Shown piece after piece: positions 21,882 to 41,200 of a stretch of 64,000 nucleotides of DNA. The notes below the pieces were generated by a model that was not told the origin of the DNA, made no database searches, and worked only from the letters and a program-made list of their open reading frames with translations. How positions within the stretch are numbered: the stretch's first letter is position 1; the number at the start of each line of letters is the position of its first letter. A program made the translations under genes and the position numbers. Origin of the DNA: Terebella lapidaria (lineage: Eukaryota > Annelida > Polychaeta > Terebellida > Terebellidae); contig OX424556.1 of assembly GCA_949152475.1 (NCBI GenBank), positions 11,342,664 through 11,406,663 of the forward strand, read 5' to 3'.

Positions 21882-23334
21882 TTAAGGCATTTCAGGAGAA
21901 ATGCCTTTATGGTTTTGTCCAAAAAAAAATTGTTTTCTTTTTTTTCACTTTTCTTTGCCAAGTTTTCACCGCTGGTCAGAAATGTTGTGTGGAAGAAGCC
22001 TATTGTTTTTGAGCCGGCTCCGGGGTCCGTGAGGTCCGTGAGGGTGAAATCAATGTTTCTGGTTTCTGCACGATAACTCAAAAAGTATTATGGCAATGAC
22101 TCTAAAACTTTGCACGGAGGTTCATATATCACCAGGGAAGAAGCCTATCGATTTTGAGGCCGATCCGTCAAACGACCTTTGATCTAGGGCTCGAAATAGT
22201 CTTAGACTCGTCATCCTAGACAAACATGTCTAAGGGGTATTATGGATGACCTTTGACCTTGACCTTAAATTTTTTCGCTGAGTCGGCATTTTTCGTTATC
22301 ATCGATATCTCGGAAACAGTGCGTCGTAGAGCGAAACGGACGTTATTTTCGGACTCGTCGCCCTAGACGAACATGTCTGAGGGGTATTATGGATGACCTT
22401 GACCTTACATTTCTTCGCTGAGTCAGCATTTTTCGTTTTCGTCGATATCTCGGAAACGGTGCGTCGTAGAGCGAAGAGGACGTTATTTTCGGACTCGTCG
22501 CCCTAGACGAACATGTCTGAAGGGTATTATGGATGACCTTTGACCTTGACTTTTCGCCCTGGACAAACAGGGCAAGGTCAAAGTTCATTCCTAGTACCCT
22601 TAAGACATGCTTGTCTAGGGCCAGGAGTCCGAAAATAGTGTCTGTTTCGCTGTACGACACACCGTTCCAAGATATCGACGAAAACGAAAAATCATCCCTA
22701 ATACTCTTTAGACATGTTTGTCTAGGGCGACGAGTCCGAAAATAATGTCCGTTTCGCTCTACCAGTCTACGAGGCACCGTTTCCGAGATATCGACGAAAA
22801 CGAAAAATGCTGACTGAGCGAAAAAAAATTAAGGTCAAAGGTCATCCATAATACCCCCTTAGACATGTTTGTCTAGGGCGACGAGTCCGAAAATAACGTC
22901 CGTTTCGCTCTACGAGGCACCATTTCCGAGATATCGACGAAAACGAAAAATGCCGACTCAGCGAAAAAATTTGAAGCCAAGGTCAAAGGTCATCCAGAAT
23001 ACCCCTTAGACAATTTGTCTAGGGTGACGAGTTCGAAAATAACGTCCGTTTCGCTCTACGACGCACCGTTTCCGAGATATGCAGGAAGCCTCAAGGATGA
23101 CTCAGCTAGAATCATTTTGAGCCCTAGGTCGAAGGCCGTTTGACGGATCGGCCTCAAAATCGAAAGGCTTCTTCCCTGGTGATATATGGACCTCCATGCA
23201 AAGTTCCACAGTCATTGCCATAATACTTTTTGAGTTATCGTGCGGAAACCAGAAACATTAAATTCATCCTCACGGACCTCACGGACCCCGGAGCCGGTTA
23301 AAAAAACAATAGGCTTCTTCTGCACAACATTTCT
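21882..23334. mobile_element. Palindromic Helitron-like element, left part (split by LINE)
   Basis: Begins TTAAGGCATTTC with a hairpin (AAGGCATTTC/GAAATGCCTT), then an A/T run. Two inverted arms follow, meeting near 22,560; each has about 147 bp tandem units plus a flank with GATCCGTCAAACG or its complement. The outer 130 bp of the right arm is displaced to 31,188-31,314 by the LINE insertion. Both outer ends are of the same (5') type, so the original element of about 1.58 kb is a head-to-head fold-back. The ORFs on it are by-products of the repeat. Confidence 0.75.
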
Positions 23335-23549
23335 TTCTTTTTTTTTTTTTTTTTTTTTTTTGAAATTCATCATCAATTTATTCATCGTCAATAGCTCCAT
23401 GGATGACATTCTTACATACTGACGACTATGTCTATTTTAGTTACATACCCAGAGAAAATTACATAGGTACCGCCACATGGAGAAAACTACCACAAAACCA
23501 CATAGATAAAGCTATCACATAACGTTTTGGGGTCTAGCTGCATATATTG

Positions 23550-26500
23550 CTAATATATTAATGTTAGACCTACAAGTGTTGCAAAAAACTTCCTATATAC
23601 TCCCATTTTTCTCGCATTTTTTTTACATTTCAACGGGTTGCTACTAGTATTTATTATGGTTTGTTCTAAGGTGTAACATTTTTTAACTGTTTTCATCAAT
23701 GCAGTAATTGATAAAATGTTTTCCGTACATTTTGTGACAAAGATGTATCGCTTCGCTATGAGAAAGAGGTGGTTTACGAGTACCAAATTTGTATTATAGT
23801 TTCCTAGCAACACATTCCGTGACGTCAAAAGGGGAAATATATTAATCATTGGATATAATCTTTCAGCAAATTCTAGCCAGAGGGCGTGTACTATTTCGCA
23901 TTCGAAGAAAAGATGAGGGATACTTTCTACAGATGATTTACAAAAGTGACATTGACCTGAAGTGGACAATCGACATAAAAACGAAAACTTATTTGTGGGA
24001 ATTATTCTATGGAGAATTTTGAATTGAAATTCCAAAAGTTTAGTGTCTATTGTACAGCTACGGGGTACCGTGTATACTATTTCCCATTTTATTGTTTGAG
24101 CTAACTGTATTTCCCACTTTTCTTCAGATGATACTTTAACTTGTAATTTGCTCAGTAATTTGTTATATACGGTATTTACCGGACGGCTTATATTCGTGAA
24201 TTCTTCCATCAAATTGGCTGGTGTATTTGAGGTTTCCGTTGTTAACTGTCGTTGGTTAATTTTCGACTTCCACCTGTACGGGATGGAGTTAATCAAACTT
24301 TGGAAATCTAAAAAGTTTATATTAACGTGTGTTAGTTTTACAAAAGTTAGGTGCGAATGAAACTGACCATTTTCGTTAAGTATATTTTCAATATAAATGA
24401 TGTTCCGAGAAATCAATTTAGATTTGAGTGGTAGGATATTTTTGCTTGTGTTCCAGTAACTATGCCAAACTGGGAAATGTACTATTTCTGAAGCTGTATA
24501 TTCCGGGTTTGTGTTTACATCACATGTAAATTTGTATTCGATCCATGCGCCTATAACATCTTTCCAAAACATATTTTGTATTTTGGCCATGATGCATTCT
24601 AATGATTCCTTATCTAACTCCCAAATAATGTACTTATCTGGACGAATGGTTTCTTTAAATAAACTTTGCCAGGAACCCTCTGCTGTCAAACGTTTTATCC
24701 AGACTATTTTTAATGATTTAAAAAGAGTTTCAAGGTGTGTTAGCTTCAATCCACCGAATTTATAATCCAGTGCTAGTTTTTCCCACGTTAATCTGGGTTT
24801 TTTGTTATCCCATAAAAAGGATTTATGTGTATTATACAAATCTTTGGTTATAGTTTTTGAGGGTATTGGTAGTGTGGAAGCTACATGAATGATTAAGGGA
24901 AGAACGAATGTTTTGATGACCGTTACTTTTCCCATCAGGGTTAAATTGCGTCTGCCATACGACTTCAACACCCTCTGAATTTTACCTATACATTTTTGAT
25001 AATTCGCATATATATTTCAAGTCACTTCCCAAATGTTATCCCCAATAAATTAAATTCCACCAACCATTGTAATGACAGATCGTCGCATATATTTTCTGGT
25101 GTTCCATTATATTTCCCCAACCACGCTGCCTGAGTTTTTCAATATTTACTTTCAGTCCCGATATTTCTCCGAATTGTTCAAGTAAAGCAAAGGTACTACG
25201 AATACTTCTTTCTGTTCCGTCCAGCAGAATGAATGTGTCATCCGCGTATAACCCAATTTTATATTCAACGCGTTTGAACCTTATGCCCTTTATTAATTGA
25301 TTGGTCTTTATAGCGTGTACAAATGGGTCTACTGCCAGAATGAAGAGATATGGAGACAGTGGATCACCCTGTCTGCAACCCCGTCCTAGACTAAAAAACT
25401 CGGAAAAGTAACCGTTATTTATGACGCAACTATTTGACCCAGAGTATAAAGTCGCAAACCACTTTATGAATGAGTCCCCAAAGTTATAAGCTTTCAGAAC
25501 ACGACTGATATAATTCCACTCAATTGTATCGAAGGCTTTCTCGAAGTCTATTAGGAGTATCATACCCGCCCGATGTAAATCATTTAAATATGCTATTAAG
25601 TCGTAGACCAGACGTGTATTCTCCCCGATGTATCTTTTCTTCAAGAAGCCTTTTTGTTCAGGACTGATAATCGAGGGTAAAACTTTCTTCATACGAGAAG
25701 CTAGCACACCTGATATAATCTTATAATCCGTATTCAAAAGCGAAATAGGTCTCCAGTTTTTTAATAATGTTCTCTGTTTGTCACCTTTCGGTAAACACGT
25801 TATGACACCTTGTTTCTGTGTAAAAGATAATTCACCATTTGCAAAAGACTCATTTATACTTGCGATCAAAATATTTTTCAAATCTTTCCAGAAAAACTGG
25901 AAAATTCAGCAGGTAAGCCGTCGTTTCCAGGCGTTTTATCGTTTTCCATGTTTTTAAGGACTGCTAGTGCTTCCGCTTCAGTTATCGGGCCTTCGCACTC
26001 GATTTTGCCTTGTTCATCTAGACTGTTTATATTCTCGAATGTTAAAAAATGGGCGAAAAGCTGTTCATTAACTACTTTATTCTCTGTTCTGTACAAATTT
26101 TCGTAAATTTTTTTTGCATTTCTAGAATAGTTTCAGGGTTTGTGATATCGACATTATTAACTTCAAGTTTTTAAATTAATTTAGATAAATAGTTCCTTTT
26201 TTCGAGACTCAGAAAATACTTAGTTGGTCTCTCTCCATATTCATAATATTTTGCTTGTGTGCGAATCATAATCCCTCTTATTTTTTCTTCCCTAATGGAT
26301 TGAAGTTCTGTTTTATAGTCTTGCAAGGTTTCCAAATTATCTTCCCCGTTCACGTATCCACGTTCAATATTACTTTCTAATTCTTCAAGGTGTTTACTTA
26401 AAGGGTATATATCACGAAAATATGATATCATTTTATTTGAAGCCACTCATTGAGCTGAATAGAACAGTCTTTACAGAATGTTTATACCTCGATTTGTTAA

Positions 26501-28446
26501 AAAGTTATAGCTATTTTAATATTGAAAATCTGGCAAATTTCTCCCAATAGTCTTGAAAAATCTGTCAGCTAATTAGTATTCAAATAATATGCGTGACATC
26601 ATTGACAGATTGTTTCTTAATGAGGTGTTAAATAAGTCACAATTAGGCATTTAAGCTTATGTTAGGTCACTAAAACTTATCAGGTATATTGTACAGTAGG
26701 AATAGTCAGTGCATGCATATCAATTTTAGTTGCCATGGCAACCAATGGGCTGATTTGGCCCTTAGCAACCAGGTTGCTATGGCTAGCTGGTATTCAATTT
26801 AAAACAAGACATATAAGTATCAAACCAATTTAGATTACCGGGTAGTGACAATATTTTATGTAATTGATCAACAAAATGTACAAAAACACTCCTTAGCAAC
26901 CGATACAGGCCTGAGAAATCACTGAGGTTTAGAGCCATGTTAAGTTAATGTGTCCTATTATCGCTGGTTTCCAATGCCTGTACTGGTTGCTAAGGGTTGT
27001 GTTCAGACATTTTGCTGATATTTTCCTCAATATATTGCTATTACTCTATTGTCTGAAATGGTTTCATTCATGTATATCTCGTTTTTAATTAGATATTGGC
27101 CCTAGCAACCATGGTTGCTAAGGGCCCAGCCAGGCCATTAGTTGCCATAACAACCACAAATTTCATGTGAACACTGAATATTCCAACTAAAAACCATAAA
27201 AAATGGATTTTGGTGAAAAAAATATGGATACAAACGATATCAATATTCCATTTTAAAATGCCTAATTAAAAAGCAGTCTGTCAATGACGTCACACATCTC
27301 ATTTGCCTATTAATTAGCTGTCAGATTCTGTTGCCAAATTCTGTAAATATATATTTAAAAGTGCCATAACTTTGCAATGAATCATGCTATCAATATGCTG
27401 TGAAGACCATTTTGTTCAGTTCAAATAGTGCTTTCACATACATAACAAAAACCAATATCCAATTTTCGTGATATATACCCTTTAAGGATAATTCGCGGTT
27501 TTTTGTTTCTTTCAATTTTACTGACAAGAACGCAATTGTTCTACCCCTTATCAATAATTTCAACACATCAAAAAAAATTCTATAGGAGATGCGATTGTTT
27601 TCGTCTGCCATTTGATATTTATCAAATTCTTCTTTGATCAAGTTTCGGATTATAAATTTATATTCATCATCATATAGTAAGGATGTGTTCAGTTTCCAGA
27701 AACCTTTTCCGCGATTTTGTTCGTAGAACGTTAGGGTCAAACATACCATTGAGTGGTCAGTTCTGTATGCCGACATAATTTTTGAGCTCCCCATATTTTG
27801 AATATCATCAGTGACTGAATAAAAATCCAATCTTGCCATTTTCAACGGTTTATATGAGCTTTTCCAAGTATATTGCGATTTACTTTGATTGCTAACTCTC
27901 CATATATCGGATAAATTGAATTGTTCTATCACACTCAGTACTTTCATTCTCGCCTGTGGGTTATTGTTCCGCACGTACGCGTATGTGTCTCTCTCGTAAT
28001 CTAGTACAAGATTCCAGTCCCCGCGACGCATTGTCGTAGATATTGACCAGACTTGTAACTTCCTCAAAGAAGGAAGCGTCATCGTTGTTTGGGCCATACA
28101 GATTGACTAGTGTTAATCTGTGTGATTCGATTGTAATATCAACCACGAGTAAATTACCTTTGGCATTCATTGTATAATCGTGGATAGTGTACTCGAAATT
28201 GTTGTTAAAGAGTATAGCTACGCCTCGACTATCTGACGTGTGAAAGTTGAAAATACCCTTGTATCCCCATTCTAATATGTAATCATTTTCGGCCCTTTGA
28301 CGACCATGGAATTCTTGAAGGCAGTATATAGAATTTTTTTTATCTTTTAACCACTCGAAAACATCCGCACGTTTCTTGTTGTTTGTTAGACCCCTGACGT
28401 TTATAGAACATAAAGTAATCTCTGTCATCAAGTTTGTGGTAATCAC
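23550..28446 (-). pseudogene. LINE ORF2: endonuclease and reverse transcriptase, broken
   Basis: The N-terminal AP-type endonuclease starts near 28,446: LCSINVRGLTNNKKR, YCLQEFHG, VNLYGPNND, then in another frame GDWNLVLDYERD, LDFYSVTDD and YRTDHSMV. After the nested element come the pre-RT region (GERPTKYFLSLEKRNY) and the RT: NWRPISLLNTDYKI, SPEQKGFL, ILLIDFEKAFDTIEWNYI, GRGCRQGDPLSPYLF and YADDTFILLDG. A C-terminal region (24,971-23,550) carries LPLIIHVASTLPIP and a Cys-His-like motif around CHFCKSSVESIPHLFFEC. The RT blocks fit the L1/Tx1 clade. A frame change near 28,050 and at least two more between 26,170 and 24,970 split it. The nested element separates KNRELSL from SKHLEELESN. Confidence 0.88.
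26402..27481. mobile_element. TTAA-flanked fold-back DNA transposon nested in the LINE
   Basis: The ends are AGGGTATATATCACGAAAA and its exact reverse complement, each flanked by TTAA (26,398-26,401 and 27,482-27,485). The TTAA duplication points to a piggyBac-type (or other TTAA-targeting) transposase. Inner sequences also pair imperfectly: TCATTGACAGATTG near 26,600 against CAGTCTGTCAATGA near 27,275, and GTTGCTAAGGGC-type words on both sides of the middle. It is a long fold-back of 1,080 bp with no transposase ORF. Removing it rejoins the LINE ORF2 coil region. Confidence 0.85.
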
Positions 28447-30150
28447 CCTTTAGGCTATGATTTTTTTTTTAACGTGGTTTTCAAATATGTCGGTCGTAGG
28501 GATCAATACCGTATGTTAACATTATCTTCTTCTTTTTTTCCCGGCCGGTAACGAAAACCTTGCGCGAAAGAGTGCAGTGTGATTATAAAAATTTCGCTCC
28601 TCATTTGAATTATAGCAAAGTTGGAGCTATATGTTCAAAGCTTTGTGAACACACAATACAAAGCAAGTATGTTAGACACACACATTTAGTTCAGGCTTTG
28701 TGAATACACAAAACAAGGCATGTATGTTAGAGACACACATTTAATTAAAGCTTGTGAACACGCAAAACGAAGCAAATATGTTAGACACACACATTTGGTT
28801 TATTTAGTATATTTTTTTGCACGCACAAAACCAGACACCTTTTATCTGTGTCACCTTTGCATTGGAACAGACTCAAAACACCACTCACATGTGCAGAAAC
28901 AAACAAACACCACAAGAAACATGCTGGCACCTTGTTTTGCTAATGTTCGTTTGTCTAAATTATTATTATTATTATATACATGTGCTTACTCAGACTCCGT
29001 CAACATTCCTAAGAACTAATACCACAAGTGTTTCACCCCGTTGACGCCAAAAACATATATTTAGGGTTACTGAGGGGAATGAGAAGCATCAAATACATAC
29101 CAGTGATGTTGACGAAAAATTTAACAAATACATTCGCCAATAGAGATCAGCGCTCATTACCGATGGTGAGATTTGTCAGCTTGGTTCTGATATCTGCTAT
29201 ATGTGAATACATGTAGCATAGAAGACACCTTCTCCCACTGTGTCGTCATGTAGATGTGAAAAAGAAAATTAAAAATATAATTGAACTGCTTTGTACAATG
29301 TAACTGGTATCCATATCTCAGCTGCTGCCTATTTTGACTCTAACCTACAGCGAGCTTGTCCATAAAACAGCGATGGCGTACCTGTATACCTGAGCTTTTA
29401 CTCGTACCATATGCAAACACGCTTCCCATGTATACCCCTAATACACCAATATTAACATACATGAGCATATTTGAGTTTTCATTATATATCCACTATAATA
29501 CCAAGGAACAGTATTGACTAGGTGGGAAGACAGAAACTAACGTAGGCTCTACACATATCATGATACTACCTTAATTATAACCATCTACCTAGCAGAACAA
29601 CACATGACACCCTCTATATTCTATACAGATTGTAATACATTTGAATAAATGTTACATTGTCATCTAGTTCTTTCCTTCACCTATTCATATTTGCTACCAT
29701 GACGATATAGCGATGATGACACGCGTACAAGGCAATAATTTCAGTTGGTTCTTTATATAGCTCGCTGATAGACTTACTCGTTTCATCATTTTATCTTTCA
29801 AATACCTATGAACGTTCACATGTCAAGTCATTTCATACATAAATAGTATATTATAATATGGATAACACAACAATGTTTTAAGTAATAGAACAATACTGAG
29901 TGATTGTCTCATTATCTCTTAAAGAATATGAAAATAAAAAAGTTGAAAACTGTCTCCCGTATTATAGGTAGGTAACAGGTAGGTATAGGTAACAATATAG
30001 TCTGCATATTAAATGATATGATGGAATGTTTTGTTCCACCTCTGATATCTATGATTTGTGGCTAAAGAACAAAAAACAAACATATTATATTACCATTCTA
30101 TTCAATAGTATTTTTCTGTTTATAAAGGTTTCATTCGGCGGTGTACAGTA
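28447..30150 (-). other. LINE inter-ORF spacer, unusually long
   Basis: 1.7 kb between the ORF2 start and the ORF1 stop of the same LINE copy. No open frame above 60 residues lies on the LINE strand and no inserted element with flanking duplication is visible. It contains a short tandem repeat (28,636-28,800). Confidence 0.5.
28636..28800. repeat. Three-copy 55 bp tandem repeat
   Basis: Three diverged units each contain CTTTGTGAAC- or CTTGTGAAC-type, ACAAAGCA-type and ATGTTAGACACACACATTT-type words; the GTTAG word starts at 28,671, 28,726 and 28,780 (period 54-55 bp). It lies in the LINE inter-ORF spacer. Confidence 0.7.
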
Positions 30151-31172
30151 TCAATAATCAGATTGTTGTATGGTGACCGAGGTACTCCTGGATTCAGTCG
30201 GCGAGGGATAGGCACTTTGTTGTGACGGAGGCGTACTACGGAAGTTTCCCTTCTCGTGAATGTGGTGGTCGGACCCAGCGAGGTTGCGTGATCCCGCGGT
30301 GGACGGCGATGTGAAGTTCATGGACGTCCCTTGACCAGGGGTTACCGGAGGGATATATCTTCCGATACGCAGGGCTGACGTTGTGCAGTGGCCGATAATT
30401 GTGAAGCGGCGTTTGCCGAGTTGTACTTCACTCGCCCATCTTGTTACCATCACGATGATGTTCATCAGGTTGTATTTTCTGAGTTCGTTCATTATATGTC
30501 TCGCGCCTGTATATTCTCCGTCGTCGTCTGAAAATTCTTGTACACCGTTTGCCATTGTGATCCTGGCCGCGAACATGTTGTTGGTGGCGCAGGACAGTCG
30601 GTGGTGAGTGTGCTTCATAATCGACAGCATCGAGACAATATCCTCGGGTGATGTCACTTGGGCTACATGTGCTACGAATCTGTTTCCGGACTCCATTATG
30701 ACTTCACTGCCACAGATATTACTTTGATCTCTTCGTTTGAGTAGTTCTTCCGTGGGGACGCGGCAGGGTGGTTGTGCTGGGACACGGTGTGTTGTTCCAT
30801 TGACATGAACAGCGTCGCCTTTGCCGATGTATCGGGGCTTTTGTCCACAATCCTTGGCTTGCCGATACACCCCCGAGATCTTGTACTTATCTTCATTCAT
30901 CTTTGGTGGCAGCTGTTGCGATACGAAATAGTCCGTACCTTTCAGGTTCTTGGCATGACGCATAATGAGGTCACGTCCAAAAGTGCATACTGCCACAATG
31001 GCTCTGGGTTTCTTCGAGGCCGTGGGTTGACCAAAGCAGTGACATCTCTCTATCCGGCTCCAAAGTCGTGTCGATATTGTTGACTGTGAACAGCGTCGAA
31101 TCCATTTTCATTATACGCTTCAAGAAGTCCATCAGAATTAACCTCGTGTTTTCATCTGTAGCTTCGCTGTAG
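30151..31172 (-). pseudogene. LINE ORF1: RNA-binding region plus UPF0029/IMPACT-like domain
   Basis: ORF1-like protein of the LINE. The first part (about 31,050-30,900) reads RAIVAVCTFGRDLIMR and AKNLKGTDYFVSQQLPP, matching the RRM end of L1-type ORF1 proteins. A segment GKGDAVHVNGTTHRV follows, then a domain at about residues 97-210 of the 281-residue frame (30,367-30,708). Its motifs SGNRFVAHVAQV, RLSCATNNMFAARI, SDDDGEYTGARHI and IIVMVTRWASEVQLGKRRFT track the UPF0029/IMPACT (YigZ) fold. The family's usual H in ATH/ATN and the G-G of RWYGG differ here. The C-terminus is Ser/Thr/Pro-rich. Upstream of about 31,050 the frame changes once, and the 5' end is cut at 31,172. The domain call rests on motif recognition, not a search. 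Confidence 0.65.
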
Positions 31173-31187
31173 CTGCACAACATTTCT

Positions 31188-31314
31188 GACCAGTGGTGAA
31201 AATTTGGCAAAGATACATCGAAGCAAACTGAAGTTATCGTGCGCAAACCAAAAAGTGAAAAAAAAATTTTTTTTTTGACAAAATCATAAAGGCATTTCTG
31301 CTGAAATGCCTTAA
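31188..31314. mobile_element. Palindromic Helitron-like element, right end (split by LINE)
   Basis: Resumes after the LINE at GACCAGTGGTGAAAATTTGG, matching in complement the left arm near 21,955-21,985. It runs through an A/T run to the terminal hairpin and ends ...GAAATGCCTTAA at 31,314. The 15 bp CTGCACAACATTTCT occurs on both sides of the LINE, confirming continuity with 21,882-23,334. Confidence 0.8.
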
Positions 31315-32289
31315 TGATTCCAATTCACTGGGCATATTATATGGACATGATACTGACAGCCTTTAGTTCTGATTGGATGTTGAGTGGAACCAAGCTATAC
31401 ATCTATGACCAGGATCACGTTCTCCAGAATATTGGAATTTGCTTTCTCACTCCACTGCCCACCGTTTCCGAGTCCTCTTGAACATTTGAAACACTGGAGA
31501 CCCGGGTCAAGGGTCATTCAGTTCATTAATTGACTTTTTTTGGTGCAATGAAAATGTCTATGAACCTGATTTCTTCCTCACGGACTAACTGGATCCCTGA
31601 GCGAATTTGGAGAAGCAAGGCTCTTCCACATACTACGAGTAGTTCCACATACACATTGATGAATCAGGCCATCTTGGACTGGTATTTTTCCGGCTTTGAA
31701 TCAGATCTGTGTTGGCTCCATAATGGGTTCATAATGTTTCATGAGGACCCGCGATTGTCTATCAATGTCCTGATCCCCAACCAAGTCATGTACATCAGAT
31801 TCACCACCATCATCCGAGACTATCCAGGCCTATTTTCAATCCTGGGTGGAAAGGTCCATGTATTGTTCATGGCGGTCCGAAACAGTCCTGAACTCATCGA
31901 GGAGTATCCTCAGTGGCCGGGGTCATGTGTTGGCAACGTGTAGGGTGGAATATCGGTCTCTGGTTTTGATATGCTGGTTCGGGGTCCTCGGAGGTTATGA
32001 CATGTTGGCCAGCATGGTATAGGCCGGGTGATCCATTGTTAGTCTGTGGCCCTGCTGATCTGGGTTTATCCTCGCTGGCACCTTGTTCAGCTGTAGTGCT
32101 ACTGTATTAGGTCCGAAGTTGATCCTTGGTGACTATGTTTCGGTCTGGATGAAGAGCGATTGTTGATTCACATGGATAACGACATCTCTTGGTGTTGGGT
32201 GTTCCTGGATAGTCCTATCTGGATAATCCTTTCTAGTTTTTAATCTGCACCTGACGAATAATGACTGGCCCCTTATATGTTTGTATAAC
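31315..32289. other. Unassigned intergenic stretch
   Basis: Contains a 137-codon open frame (31,530-31,943, +) with no family I recognise and no splice or promoter context. Possibly an old element remnant. Nothing else visible. Confidence 0.4.
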
Positions 32290-38284: not shown

Positions 38285-41200
38285 TTAAGTACGTCGACGT
38301 GCGTGGCCAAAGCGAGGTCGCCTTGTGGCTCGGGGGCGGCGTGTCGCTCGAGGGACGGGAGTCGTTGTGGGAGGTATCGGCTGGGGGTGACCGGGAACGC
38401 GTCCTGGGTTGTACGGCTGGGCCTGCGAGGGGTTGCCGCCACCACCGATCAGACTGCCCTCCTGGACATTGGGCGATCCGACGATGCACTGACAGCGGCC
38501 ATTGACTGACGCGGCGGTGAAGCCCTGTCGACATGACAGCTCCTGCTGACAGAGCAAGTCGGCCTGACCGACATCCAGTACCGGGCTGTTGGTTGATGTC
38601 ACACACCTGTAGCAATAAACATTTTGAATAAGACACATGTGTCTAGGCCCGAACTCTGTAGCGTAGGCCCAAATATCTTTGTGAATCAACACACCACGTG
38701 AAAGCATCACTACATGTACACATGACTTAAGACTATAGGTTGTAGCCTAACGTAGGCCTATACTAGTTTTAAAACAATTTCTTCTAGTTACTGGTAAGGC
38801 TACTATTATATCATCCAGATGTAGGTTAGTATTAGATCTAGTTCGTTTCAGATTGGGATGTATGTATAACCCATTTGCACTAGGCCTATATCTTGCACCA
38901 GAAACCCACATCTCTTATGGGTTTCTGCTTGCACGTACCTGCACGTTGTGTGACTGAATTCCTCGTCATCCTGGCAGTCCCTTGTCTTGGTAGGACAGAC
39001 ACAGGCACACTCTTCATTGCTCCAGACATGTGGCGCCACGCAGCTGGTGGCATCGTGTTCGTTCAGACATCGACACGTGCAGGCACGCGTGTCGTACATG
39101 TGACGCCCGGGTACACAGTCGTCTGGCTGTACCCGACACCGACACTCACAGGCCAAGTGCCGACTGAAGGCCATGTCAACCACGCCAGCAAACTCGAAAT
39201 ACTGCGACCCCATGTACGGGTATCTGGCCCAAAGTACCTGAAACGGTTCGCATCCATGCATGTATGTGTCTGAAGGCCTAATGAATTACGACATACATTT
39301 TAGCATTTATAAGAGACAAGGCTGGTGTCGCAATCGTGACAGTTTTCGATCTTATAATATAACTGAAACATGTAAAACATGTTCACACTTTACTGTGTAC
39401 AGTGTATGCTCAACATTCATGATCATAACTCATGACCAATGTAACAAAGGCTGAAGAGGTATTGTTCAAAGTTATAGCATATTTATTTAATGGAAAATTA
39501 TTATAAATTATCGTTGCCTAAAGAAAAATCGCCAAAATTATCATGCTCTGTTTTTTTTTTTTAAGATTTCTGTATCCAATGACCAATTTACACATTTTGA
39601 AGTAGACATTATTTTGAAGTAGACATCATCCAAGGTCATCTGGGAGACAAGACTCCCTAGGCCTATATGCTTGCAATACAAGCCTAAGCTCTATCTTCAG
39701 GGATTTTATAGATCTCTGCATAAATCACTTCCCACTTGCATGAATCTGCGTGAACTTTGATTTCCAATTCACAGGAGTTTATATGGACTGACCTAAATCC
39801 AGCCAAACAGCTCATGTACCCTGATGATATACCCTAAAATCTCTGAAAATAATGGCTAGTTTTGCAAGGTAATATCTGGATGGAATGTTGCTGTGGAGCT
39901 GCATGCATGGGAACGCAAATATATTTGATGAAAATTCCGACAGCAATAGAAAATCGTTAGCAAGGGACAGCACTATAAAATCGTTAGGGGACAGCACTAG
40001 AAAGTCATTTTTTCAATAGTGTGTAGTTTATTATGACGCCCCGTTCATGCCACAAAAAAGTGAAGATTTTTTTTTATCTCATACGTATGACATTTTTTCA
40101 TATGTATGAGATAAAAAAAAATCTTCACTTTTTTGTGCAGGTGATTTCCCAAATGACCTTGGATGATATAAGTCATATGTGTGAGATATTAACACATACG
40201 TGTGAGATACTAACTCATACGTATGAGATACTAACTCATACGTATGATTTATTAACACATACATATGAGATAATAAGTCATACTCATGACATAATATGAC
40301 ATACGAATGGCATACGTATAATATGACATACGTATGACTTGATACAGTATCTCTCACGTATGATTAGTATTTCATACATATAGGTATTTCATAAGTATTT
40401 CATACTTATGACATAATAGTATCGCATACGTATGTGTTAGTATTTCATACGTATGATTTATTATCTCATTCATATGACATAGTATCTCATACGTATGAGT
40501 TAGAAAAAACTTAACTTTTTTTGTGGCACGAACGGGGCGCCATAGTTTATATAGTGTGGTAATCCAACATCGAGTTACATAAGTCATGAATATGGCATTC
40601 AAAATCTTTCGACACTTTTTTGTGTCAAGTTTCAAGGCCCCCAAAAGATGCAACATACAGTCTATATAATAATATCCATAACGTAAACCTCATATCTTTC
40701 AAATATTTGTTTCCAAAGACCAATTAAGGGATATTTTAATTGCCTAAAAGTCCCGAGAATGGCCATTTTAGGCAGTAAAGGAACGGTCGAGTGAATGTTT
40801 GGGAGGGGAACAATGTCAACGACTATACAACACGTGTTTGCCCGCGTCGAATTAAAATGGAAACTATAGGGTCATTTTTTTATATATACCGGACGACGAC
40901 GACATCGACAGACGCAACGCAACGCCACGACATGTACATTATAAAATTATCGGACCAAATGTTCGGTAACTGTCGGTCAACATATAGTTCGGTAGGCTAG
41001 CAATGAATCCGAACAAAAACTCAACACGTCCACATGTTACATGTCACTAACTGGGAATGTGACGGTCTGCTCCCGCGTGGGCGCACACTCGAGCATTTCG
41101 TTGTTGCAGCATCCGGAGCAGCGGTCCAGCTTGAGACACTCAGGATAAAAGATAAGGTTTGGGTCCAGCGGGTCCGCCGGGATCCTGTAGGACACTCGCT

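Follow-up and report, generated by a model that had tools for sequence, protein, structure and literature searches.

In the 64,000-nucleotide stretch of the Terebella lapidaria genome analysed here (assembly GCA_949152475.1, contig OX424556.1, positions 11,342,664 to 11,406,663; hereafter the window), a broken long interspersed nuclear element (LINE) carries on its minus strand a first open reading frame (ORF1) in which a region resembling the human LINE-1 ORF1 protein (ORF1p) by predicted fold is followed by a UPF0029 domain, the ancient domain of the IMPACT proteins. UPF0029 is a resident ORF1 module of several LINE lineages of this genome, copied along with them and under constraint, a conclusion that we regard as close to certain. 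An earlier note on this DNA had described a UPF0029/IMPACT-type domain within an L1-type LINE ORF1; this is borne out by the Pfam match and, through a relative of the window copy, by the fold, and the claim was understated, the domain being present also in the ORF1s of LINEs with other second frames (ORF2s) and with SGNH domains. Taken as a whole, the explanation that accounts best for the observations, and which we consider highly likely, is that of a resident module that was spread by exchange of ORF1s and serves as an extra binding module.

The window frame (30151-31107, minus strand) is open over 318 aa rather than the 281 residues first given for it, and all of the UPF0029 and ORF1 motifs quoted from it are present. 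UPF0029 occupies 30370-30681 (minus strand; C2:11373033-11373344 on the contig), within the interval 30367-30708 originally singled out, and the whole-genome profile hidden Markov model (HMM) search returned the identical place. The Pfam match (E=1.4e-18, 67.3 bits against a cut-off of 27) spans frame residues 143-246 and positions 4-107 of the 107-position profile, while phmmer against the PDB gave the yeast 'Protein IMPACT homolog' 6bqi as its best match (E=1.2e-9). A predicted model of the domain, for which 32 aligned sequences from the same genome were the input, has a mean predicted local distance difference test (pLDDT) value of 94.8 and a predicted template-modelling score (pTM) of 0.88. 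At E<=0.001 Foldseek returned three structures for it, namely Yih1 (6bqi; 8e-7, TM 0.66), which is the comparison with IMPACT that had been proposed, TT1547 (2cve; 1e-6, TM 0.82) and YigZ (1vi7; 7e-5, TM 0.82), and the model thus predicts the YigZ/Yih1 ancient-domain fold in the window domain. A chance match as the source of the UPF0029 signal is ruled out by the E-value, by the fold and by the recurrence of the domain throughout the genome.

The block upstream of UPF0029 (30733-31065, minus strand, limits approximate, in frame with UPF0029) is L1-ORF1-like in its predicted fold, as judged on a relative, locus L038; the window's own copy of this part, comprising an RNA recognition motif (RRM) and a C-terminal domain (CTD), is broken. 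The window frame aligns with the L038 ORF1 at 54% identity across 259 aa. The predicted model of the RRM-CTD-UPF0029 stretch of L038 (mean pLDDT 83.1) matched 11 PDB chains at E<=0.001, eight of which are human LINE-1 ORF1p (1.6e-5 to 3.8e-4), the other three being Yih1, 2cve and YigZ (1vi7). A sequence-profile search from an alignment of this stretch did not retrieve L1 ORF1p, and in the window, the scanned ORF1 frames and a further locus, L155, Pfam gave no significant L1 ORF1 family and no Transposase_22 match, the Tnp_22_trimer match of L155 having merely E=0.16. The Pfam check suggested for the window frame gave a significant match to UPF0029 and none to an L1 ORF1 family. Coiled-coil Pfam matches fall below the cut-offs in L036, L038 and L021, and the corresponding region is missing from the 5'-truncated window copy, which begins near residue 144 of the 491-aa L038 ORF1 frame.

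A UPF0029 profile search of the 761.6-Mb genome, in which 150 places were scored out of 381 candidates, placed all 150 above the cut-off and across 17 contigs, with stop-to-stop frames of at least 300 aa at 111 of them and at least 400 aa at 87. The prospect that the window held a one-off insertion is ruled out by these many genomic places and by the relatives fetched, which also carry UPF0029. Those relatives comprise 24 loci, each 9.5 kb long (L009-L028, taken among the higher-scoring places, and L035-L038, the kin of the window copy), 34 short and mostly domain-sized loci (L039-L058 and L059-L072), and L073 and L155. UPF0029 lies within ORF1-type frames in all 24 of the 9.5-kb loci; besides the window, Pfam recovered it in each of the ten ORF1 frames scanned (E 6e-19 to 8e-28), and RVT_1 was above its cut-off in seven of the eight ORF2 frames that lie behind scanned ORF1s, the eighth (L025) being ended by the locus boundary.

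The association also appears when the neighbouring modules are searched on their own. The RRM/CTD part of L038 gave 143 matches from 150 scored of 302 candidates and, set against the 150 scored UPF0029 places and 30 further places entered by hand, UPF0029 lies at most 1.3 kb downstream in 35 of the 37 matches of at least 100 bits, in 77 of the 85 of at least 45 bits and in 109 of the 143 overall. ORF1s seemingly lacking the domain amount to 34 RRM/CTD matches for which no UPF0029 was listed, and the sole one of them fetched, L155, carries it at E=5.6e-10; some of these misses hence reflect only that 150 UPF0029 candidates were scored. For SGNH, 65 of 99 matches, chiefly those that score higher or lie in longer frames, were entered by hand, and 30 of the 65 have UPF0029 within 1.5 kb, as do some of those omitted. 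Viewed from the 150 UPF0029 places, 79 have RRM/CTD upstream, 30 have SGNH near and 41 have neither, these last including short copies, some intact frames and the class D described below.

The loci were sorted into four ORF1 classes, labelled A to D, which are defined in this analysis. Class A (the window and L035-L038) presents a probable coiled coil, then RRM, CTD, UPF0029 and a tail, separated by about 1.7-3.3 kb from an L1-like ORF2. The L036 ORF2 aligns with human LINE-1 ORF2p from residue 4 to residue 1170 (E=1e-104), and Pfam detected the endonuclease (EN), RVT_1 and zf-RVT both in L036 and in the ORF2 pieces of the window. In L035-L038, further copies of the kind that the earlier note proposed to search for, the two domains share a frame that precedes an ORF2 of this type. 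Class B (L021, L022, L026 and L027) follows the class A order of ORF1, with UPF0029 at the C-terminal end, and is joined to an ORF2 of about 1,200 aa that combines EN and reverse transcriptase (RT) and is of a different kind from that of class A (Pfam on L021 and L026). At the N-terminus of these class B ORF2s the motifs DVHPNPGP (L021) and DIHCNPGP (L026) resemble 2A-type peptides. L025 has a class-B-like ORF1, with the next EN-RT frame 4 kb off.

Class C contains the 15 loci that combine UPF0029 with SGNH, their order being taken from the positions of SGNH matches relative to the UPF0029 places. In ten (C1: L009, L010, L011, L012, L015, L016, L017, L023, L024 and L028) SGNH follows UPF0029, and in five (C2: L013, L014, L018, L019 and L020) it precedes it. 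Pfam was run on five of the 15 (L009, L013, L014, L019 and L028) and found SGNH/GDSL above the cut-off in three (L009, L013 and L019), marginally short of it in L014 (32.7 against 32.9) and below it in L028 (24.3). PHD is above the cut-off in L028 alone, which also matches PHD chains in the PDB; it is below in L009, L013 and L019 and gives no match in L014. The CCHC knuckles of class C are a by-eye reading, with no CCHC Pfam match in the five scanned. Class D comprises the domains of L057, L058, L062, L065 and L066; L058, for which downstream sequence was at hand, shows an SGNH-like stretch by eye (no Pfam family) followed by an endonuclease frame (E=3.8e-6).

A separate feature of class C is that ORF1 and ORF2 share a frame split by a single UAG in all 13 loci examined (L010-L015, L017-L020, L023, L024 and L028, several of them near-copies), L009 and L016 being without a clear junction. 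Nine aligned loci have an invariant GGC from 6 nt past the UAG and an invariant GCC 9-12 nt further on. Stop-codon readthrough, as used by some retroviral gag-pol genes, is possibly what this sequence pattern reflects, or else a plain coding constraint; a candidate hairpin following the UAG has four pairs, none with a two-sided change.

Movement and selection can both be read from the copies. Between L035 and L036, which lie on two chromosomes, identity is 99.5% across 6.4 kb, a stretch that takes in ORF1 and about two thirds of ORF2 from its start, and the 5' flanks differ; L021 and L022 align in three pieces, bounded by sharp ends, with 98.9-99.6% identity, and words of 14 and 11 bp recur in both flanks of each. 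Constraint was assessed on 40 within-class pairs drawn from 18 of the 24 loci and the window, with L010, L011, L018, L020, L024 and L035 excluded as near-copies or partial. In 38 of the 40, UPF0029 has a higher amino-acid identity than the aligned ORF1 parts that flank it, the upstream part including the fast-changing coiled coil and some read-in ahead of the start; the exceptions are L036 with the window (0.39 against 0.40) and L021 with L022 (0.98 against 0.99). Synonymous divergence (dS) is mostly saturated, and in the one clearly unsaturated pair, L012/L016 (dS 0.20), the ratio of non-synonymous to synonymous divergence (dN/dS) is 0.22 for UPF0029 and 0.34-0.36 for the flanking parts. For L009/L015, L026/L027 and L013/L014 the UPF0029 ratios are 0.06, 0.14 and 0.19 at dS 1.7-2.0. 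Among 54 distinct full-length UPF0029 domains DD.E is kept in 51 and RW in 53.

Several observations weigh against so uniform a picture of a maintained module. The 54 domains are high-scoring places and the set is biased towards intact motifs; L021 and L022 are too similar to reveal constraint (upstream dN/dS 1.0); and 35 of the 65 SGNH matches have no UPF0029 nearby among the matches listed. The window copy is itself broken, by a frame shift in the RRM, an ORF2 split over several frames and a nested 1.1-kb repeat. L155 and L004/L012, moreover, keep UPF0029 without the DDGE and RW loops, and loop-less copies such as L155 imply that the role of the domain can change. In the diverged domain of L155 (201-1379, minus strand) the loops are replaced by SDRDYDVG and TRSCKPGF, and in a 188-aa frame of L012 by DLDGDYGVG and TRTCKSGF; judged by these residues, the two apparently represent a derived subtype.

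The window frame belongs to one LINE insertion, 23335-31172 on the minus strand, a 5'-truncated and broken L1/Tx1-like copy. It is bounded by an exact 15-bp target-site duplication, CTGCACAACATTTCT, at 23320-23334 beside its 3' end and at 31173-31187 beside its 5' end, and its poly(A) tail appears as a T-run of the plus strand at 23338-23362. Put end to end, the two flanks (318 bases) correspond to an interspersed repeat about 300 bases long, with no break at the junction, at all 40 places scored out of 3,477 first-look candidates (89-94% identity). The LINE was thus inserted into one copy of this repeat of about 300 bp (window 23165-23334 and 31188-31315). Within it, ORF1, spacer and ORF2 are collinear with those of L035-L038.

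These features bear directly on whether the frame could instead belong to the host, as an IMPACT-like gene or exon adjoining a LINE by accident. The sequence is of IMPACT type and, among the matches listed, none is a close DNA copy of the ORF1 stretch, as might be expected of a host gene, but the frame sits between exact target-site duplications that have empty-site counterparts, and a frame with RRM and UPF0029 ahead of a similar ORF2 recurs in L035-L038. For the window copy a neighbouring host gene is ruled out by the duplications and the empty-site copies, as the earlier note had argued from the 15-bp repeat, and an accidental junction is now barely conceivable. The ultimate source of the domain is a separate question. 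Against the profile of the transposon UPF0029 domains the yeast IMPACT homolog reaches 91.6 bits, far more than Thermus 2cve (27.4) or YigZ (21.0), and the transposon domain is for this reason assigned to the IMPACT type. The host IMPACT gene was not identified in a search that exon-split genes escape, the short partial UPF0029 matches L069-L072 resembling truncated transposable element copies, and a loss of IMPACT does not follow from this. Some bacteria also carry the RW[FY]GG type: a bacterial search whose pattern itself required RW[FY][GS]G found 355 relatives, and the 80 of them retained are by title mostly Rhodobacterales, with six records from candidate phyla (Pace-, Kaiser-, Campbell- and Uhrbacteria). 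A tree was built from 48 rows, comprising 32 transposon domains, 13 bacterial loci out of the 80, a single hit from viral contigs, and the yeast and Thermus domains. In it the transposon domains sort according to ORF1 class (support 99/93 for A, 93/86 for C1, 92/77 for C2 and 100/99 for D, class B falling into one or two groups), class A is joined by the bacterial rows (98/85), and the viral-contig hit groups with bacteria. Given the bacterial RW[FY]GG type and the bacterial rows beside class A, a host IMPACT origin is not established; a single grouping of the transposon domains has p=0.245 in the approximately unbiased (AU) test and three alternatives have p=0.21-0.26, none being rejected.

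How the domain came to be in several lineages can be approached through the ORF1s that surround it. Class A and class B ORF1s align from the RRM through the end of UPF0029 (30-32% identity to L038), whereas their ORF2s are very different: class A ORF2s are 20-29% identical to those of B and C, and class B and C ORF2s, which are putatively CR1/Jockey-like, match one another with E 3e-54 to 2e-75. Collinear ORF1s in front of such different ORF2s argue for exchange of an ORF1 module, and on this comparison of sequences UPF0029 has rather likely been exchanged between LINE lineages. LINE lineages are described as exchanging ORF1 types in PMC4120745. Independent captures, in which each class of LINE took UPF0029 from host IMPACT or from bacteria, would agree with the clustering of the domains by ORF1 class, most firmly in A and D, with the different position of UPF0029 in C1 and C2, and with the bacterial rows that join class A; the collinear ORF1 common to A and B and a single origin that the tree comparison does not reject speak against them, and we give this course of events a sizeable minority of the probability. 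On the reading that we prefer, the domain would originally have been acquired from an IMPACT-type gene and would have spread at least partly via exchange of ORF1 modules.

As to function, UPF0029 may be an additional binding module of the ORF1 ribonucleoprotein, engaging its target through the conserved ATHN, DDGE and RWYGG loops that it shares with IMPACT. The face formed by these loops would bind whatever conserved partner it binds in IMPACT, RNA or the translating ribosome being the most likely, and newly made ORF1p could thereby stay on its own mRNA or keep that mRNA translated. The ancient domain is described, in PMC7140605 and PMC4503747, as conserved in all kingdoms and of unknown function, with its conserved loops clustered on one side, and it has been proposed that PF01205 counteracts the inhibition of translation (PMC6822775). 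Binding of RNA or the ribosome by the UPF0029 of ORF1p is put forward tentatively. What tells against it is that the region of Yih1 that binds actin, Gcn1 and the ribosome maps over the linker (PMC7140605 and PMC4503747); the ribosome-binding region thus lies partly outside the ancient domain, which lowers the odds, and the partner of the LINE domain is itself inferred. It is more doubtful still that the ancient domain of IMPACT is in its own right a module that engages ribonucleoprotein or ribosome, and that LINEs with two very different kinds of ORF2 have turned it into the most constrained part of ORF1p. Were this true, LINE proteins devoid of RWD would uncouple what the ancient domain does from the binding of GCN1, and the ancient domain would be seen to serve a selfish RNA, for example by tethering ORF1p to the ribosome that translates its own transcript.

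Other roles have been weighed against a binding module. The earlier note had suggested control of translation through competition for GCN1 and damping of GCN2, and a stress-signalling antagonist of this kind, letting ORF1p compete for GCN1 during mobilisation, would suit a domain of IMPACT type, given that Yih1/IMPACT inhibits GCN2 via GCN1; that competition is, however, attributed to the RWD domain, while the ancient domain's function is called unknown (PMC7140605 and PMC4503747), and RWD alone is inhibitory when overexpressed (PMC7140605). Pfam found no RWD in any of the 11 ORF1 frames scanned (the window and ten others). The idea accordingly loses its main support, the LINE proteins having no detected RWD; the domain would not act as an RWD-type GCN1 competitor, and any effect of it on GCN1 or GCN2 is improbable. 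The genome holds seven RWD places, at least about 480 kb, as judged by eye, from the nearest of the 150 scored UPF0029 places. One of them (C1:36063655-36063999, E=4.4e-26) lies in a 1722-aa frame free of interruptions, which may be a GCN2-like gene without introns. UPF0029 could alternatively be a stable alpha/beta domain that shapes or solubilises the ORF1p assembly with no specific partner, a structural or oligomerisation role with which its varying position (C-terminal, or before or after SGNH) and the loss of the conserved loops in some copies would be compatible. The loop motifs kept in 51-53 of the 54 domains, in a set biased to good scorers, and the fact that no part of ORF1 is better conserved than UPF0029 in 38 of the 40 pairs point the other way, and we think such a role unlikely. 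That the partner is a protein different from GCN1, such as a cell-cycle kinase, is less likely again: GST-Yih1[133-258], the fragment of Yih1 that holds the ancient domain, seemed in pull-downs to bind Cdc28 at least as well as the full-length protein, yet the major Cdc28 determinant was placed in the linker region (both from PMC4503747).

These elements can be set beside several known systems. With LINE-1/Tx1-type elements that have a type II ORF1 (coiled coil, RRM and CTD) they share an ORF2 that in L036 is L1-like over nearly its whole length, the RRM-CTD fold predicted for L038, and the poly(A) tail and 15-bp duplication of the window copy; they differ in the added UPF0029 and tail and in the roughly 1.7-3.3 kb between ORF1 and ORF2. 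The same kinds of ORF1 module, and exchange of ORF1 types, are known from CR1/L2/Jockey elements with type II, PHD and esterase ORF1s (PMC4120745), to which UPF0029 is here added at three positions. The module set described for LINE ORF1s in that paper comprises RRM, CTD, PHD, esterase and CCHC, and the text examined makes no mention of IMPACT or UPF0029. From IMPACT/Yih1, with which they share the ancient domain in sequence and fold and the DDGE and RW[FY]GG...RF motifs, the LINE proteins differ in having no detected RWD and in joining the domain to ORF1 modules; bacterial YigZ/TTHA1053 proteins share the UPF0029 fold (TM 0.82) but have the lower profile scores (21-27 against 92 bits) and RY[FY]GG instead of RW[FY]GG. 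TRAS, reportedly an insect LINE with a captured viral helicase in ORF2, offers a parallel for a retrotransposon protein that gained and kept a foreign domain, although the helicase is in ORF2 and the IMPACT-type domain described here is in the ORF1 of several LINE lineages. No report of a UPF0029/IMPACT domain in a LINE was found in a literature search that left subscription journals mostly uncovered and had Repbase outside its scope. As far as searched, the IMPACT-type domain therefore enlarges the known set of ORF1 modules, in several lineages and not in one odd copy, and probably adds a further instance in which L1-like and putative CR1/Jockey-like elements have exchanged an ORF1. LINEs with the ancient domain and no RWD also provide a route to testing what that domain does.

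The remaining parts of the window LINE can be placed as follows, all on the minus strand unless stated. The 318-aa ORF1 remnant holds the RRM/CTD part, UPF0029 and the tail, with an N-terminal part of the RRM recovered in a shifted frame at 31052-31165 (blastx to L038 ORF1 residues 144-181, E=6e-8). The ORF1-ORF2 spacer extends over 28450-30150, the spacers of L035-L038 measuring about 1.8-3.3 kb, and has copies elsewhere: 28300-29310 is common to C13:16525806 and 28300-28815 to C3:32496552, both at 94%. ORF2 begins with an endonuclease part at 27961-28449 (Exo_endo_phos, E=1.1e-6), followed by the reverse transcriptase at 25036-25905 (RVT_1, E=1.7e-35; 62.5% identity to the L036 RT over 256 aa) and a C-terminal part at 23550-25016 (zf-RVT, E=1.7e-7). 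Similar copies of the ORF2 part exist elsewhere, for example on contig C3 at 97%, and two ORF2 copies extend into the spacer and end there, like 5'-truncated LINEs.

The 1.1-kb element nested inside ORF2 (26397-27486, unstranded) occurs at at least 33 other places with 92-96% identity, and its copies also match the opposite strand at about 67%, as expected of a long inverted-repeat element. Beside the target of the LINE, window 22574-23087 contains diverged direct repeats at a spacing of 107-151 bp. Further along, a cysteine-rich frame at 38848-39285 (minus strand), with a CXCXC-like repeat at E=0.044 (14.6 bits against a cut-off of 15), perhaps belongs to a VEGF/PVF-type gene.

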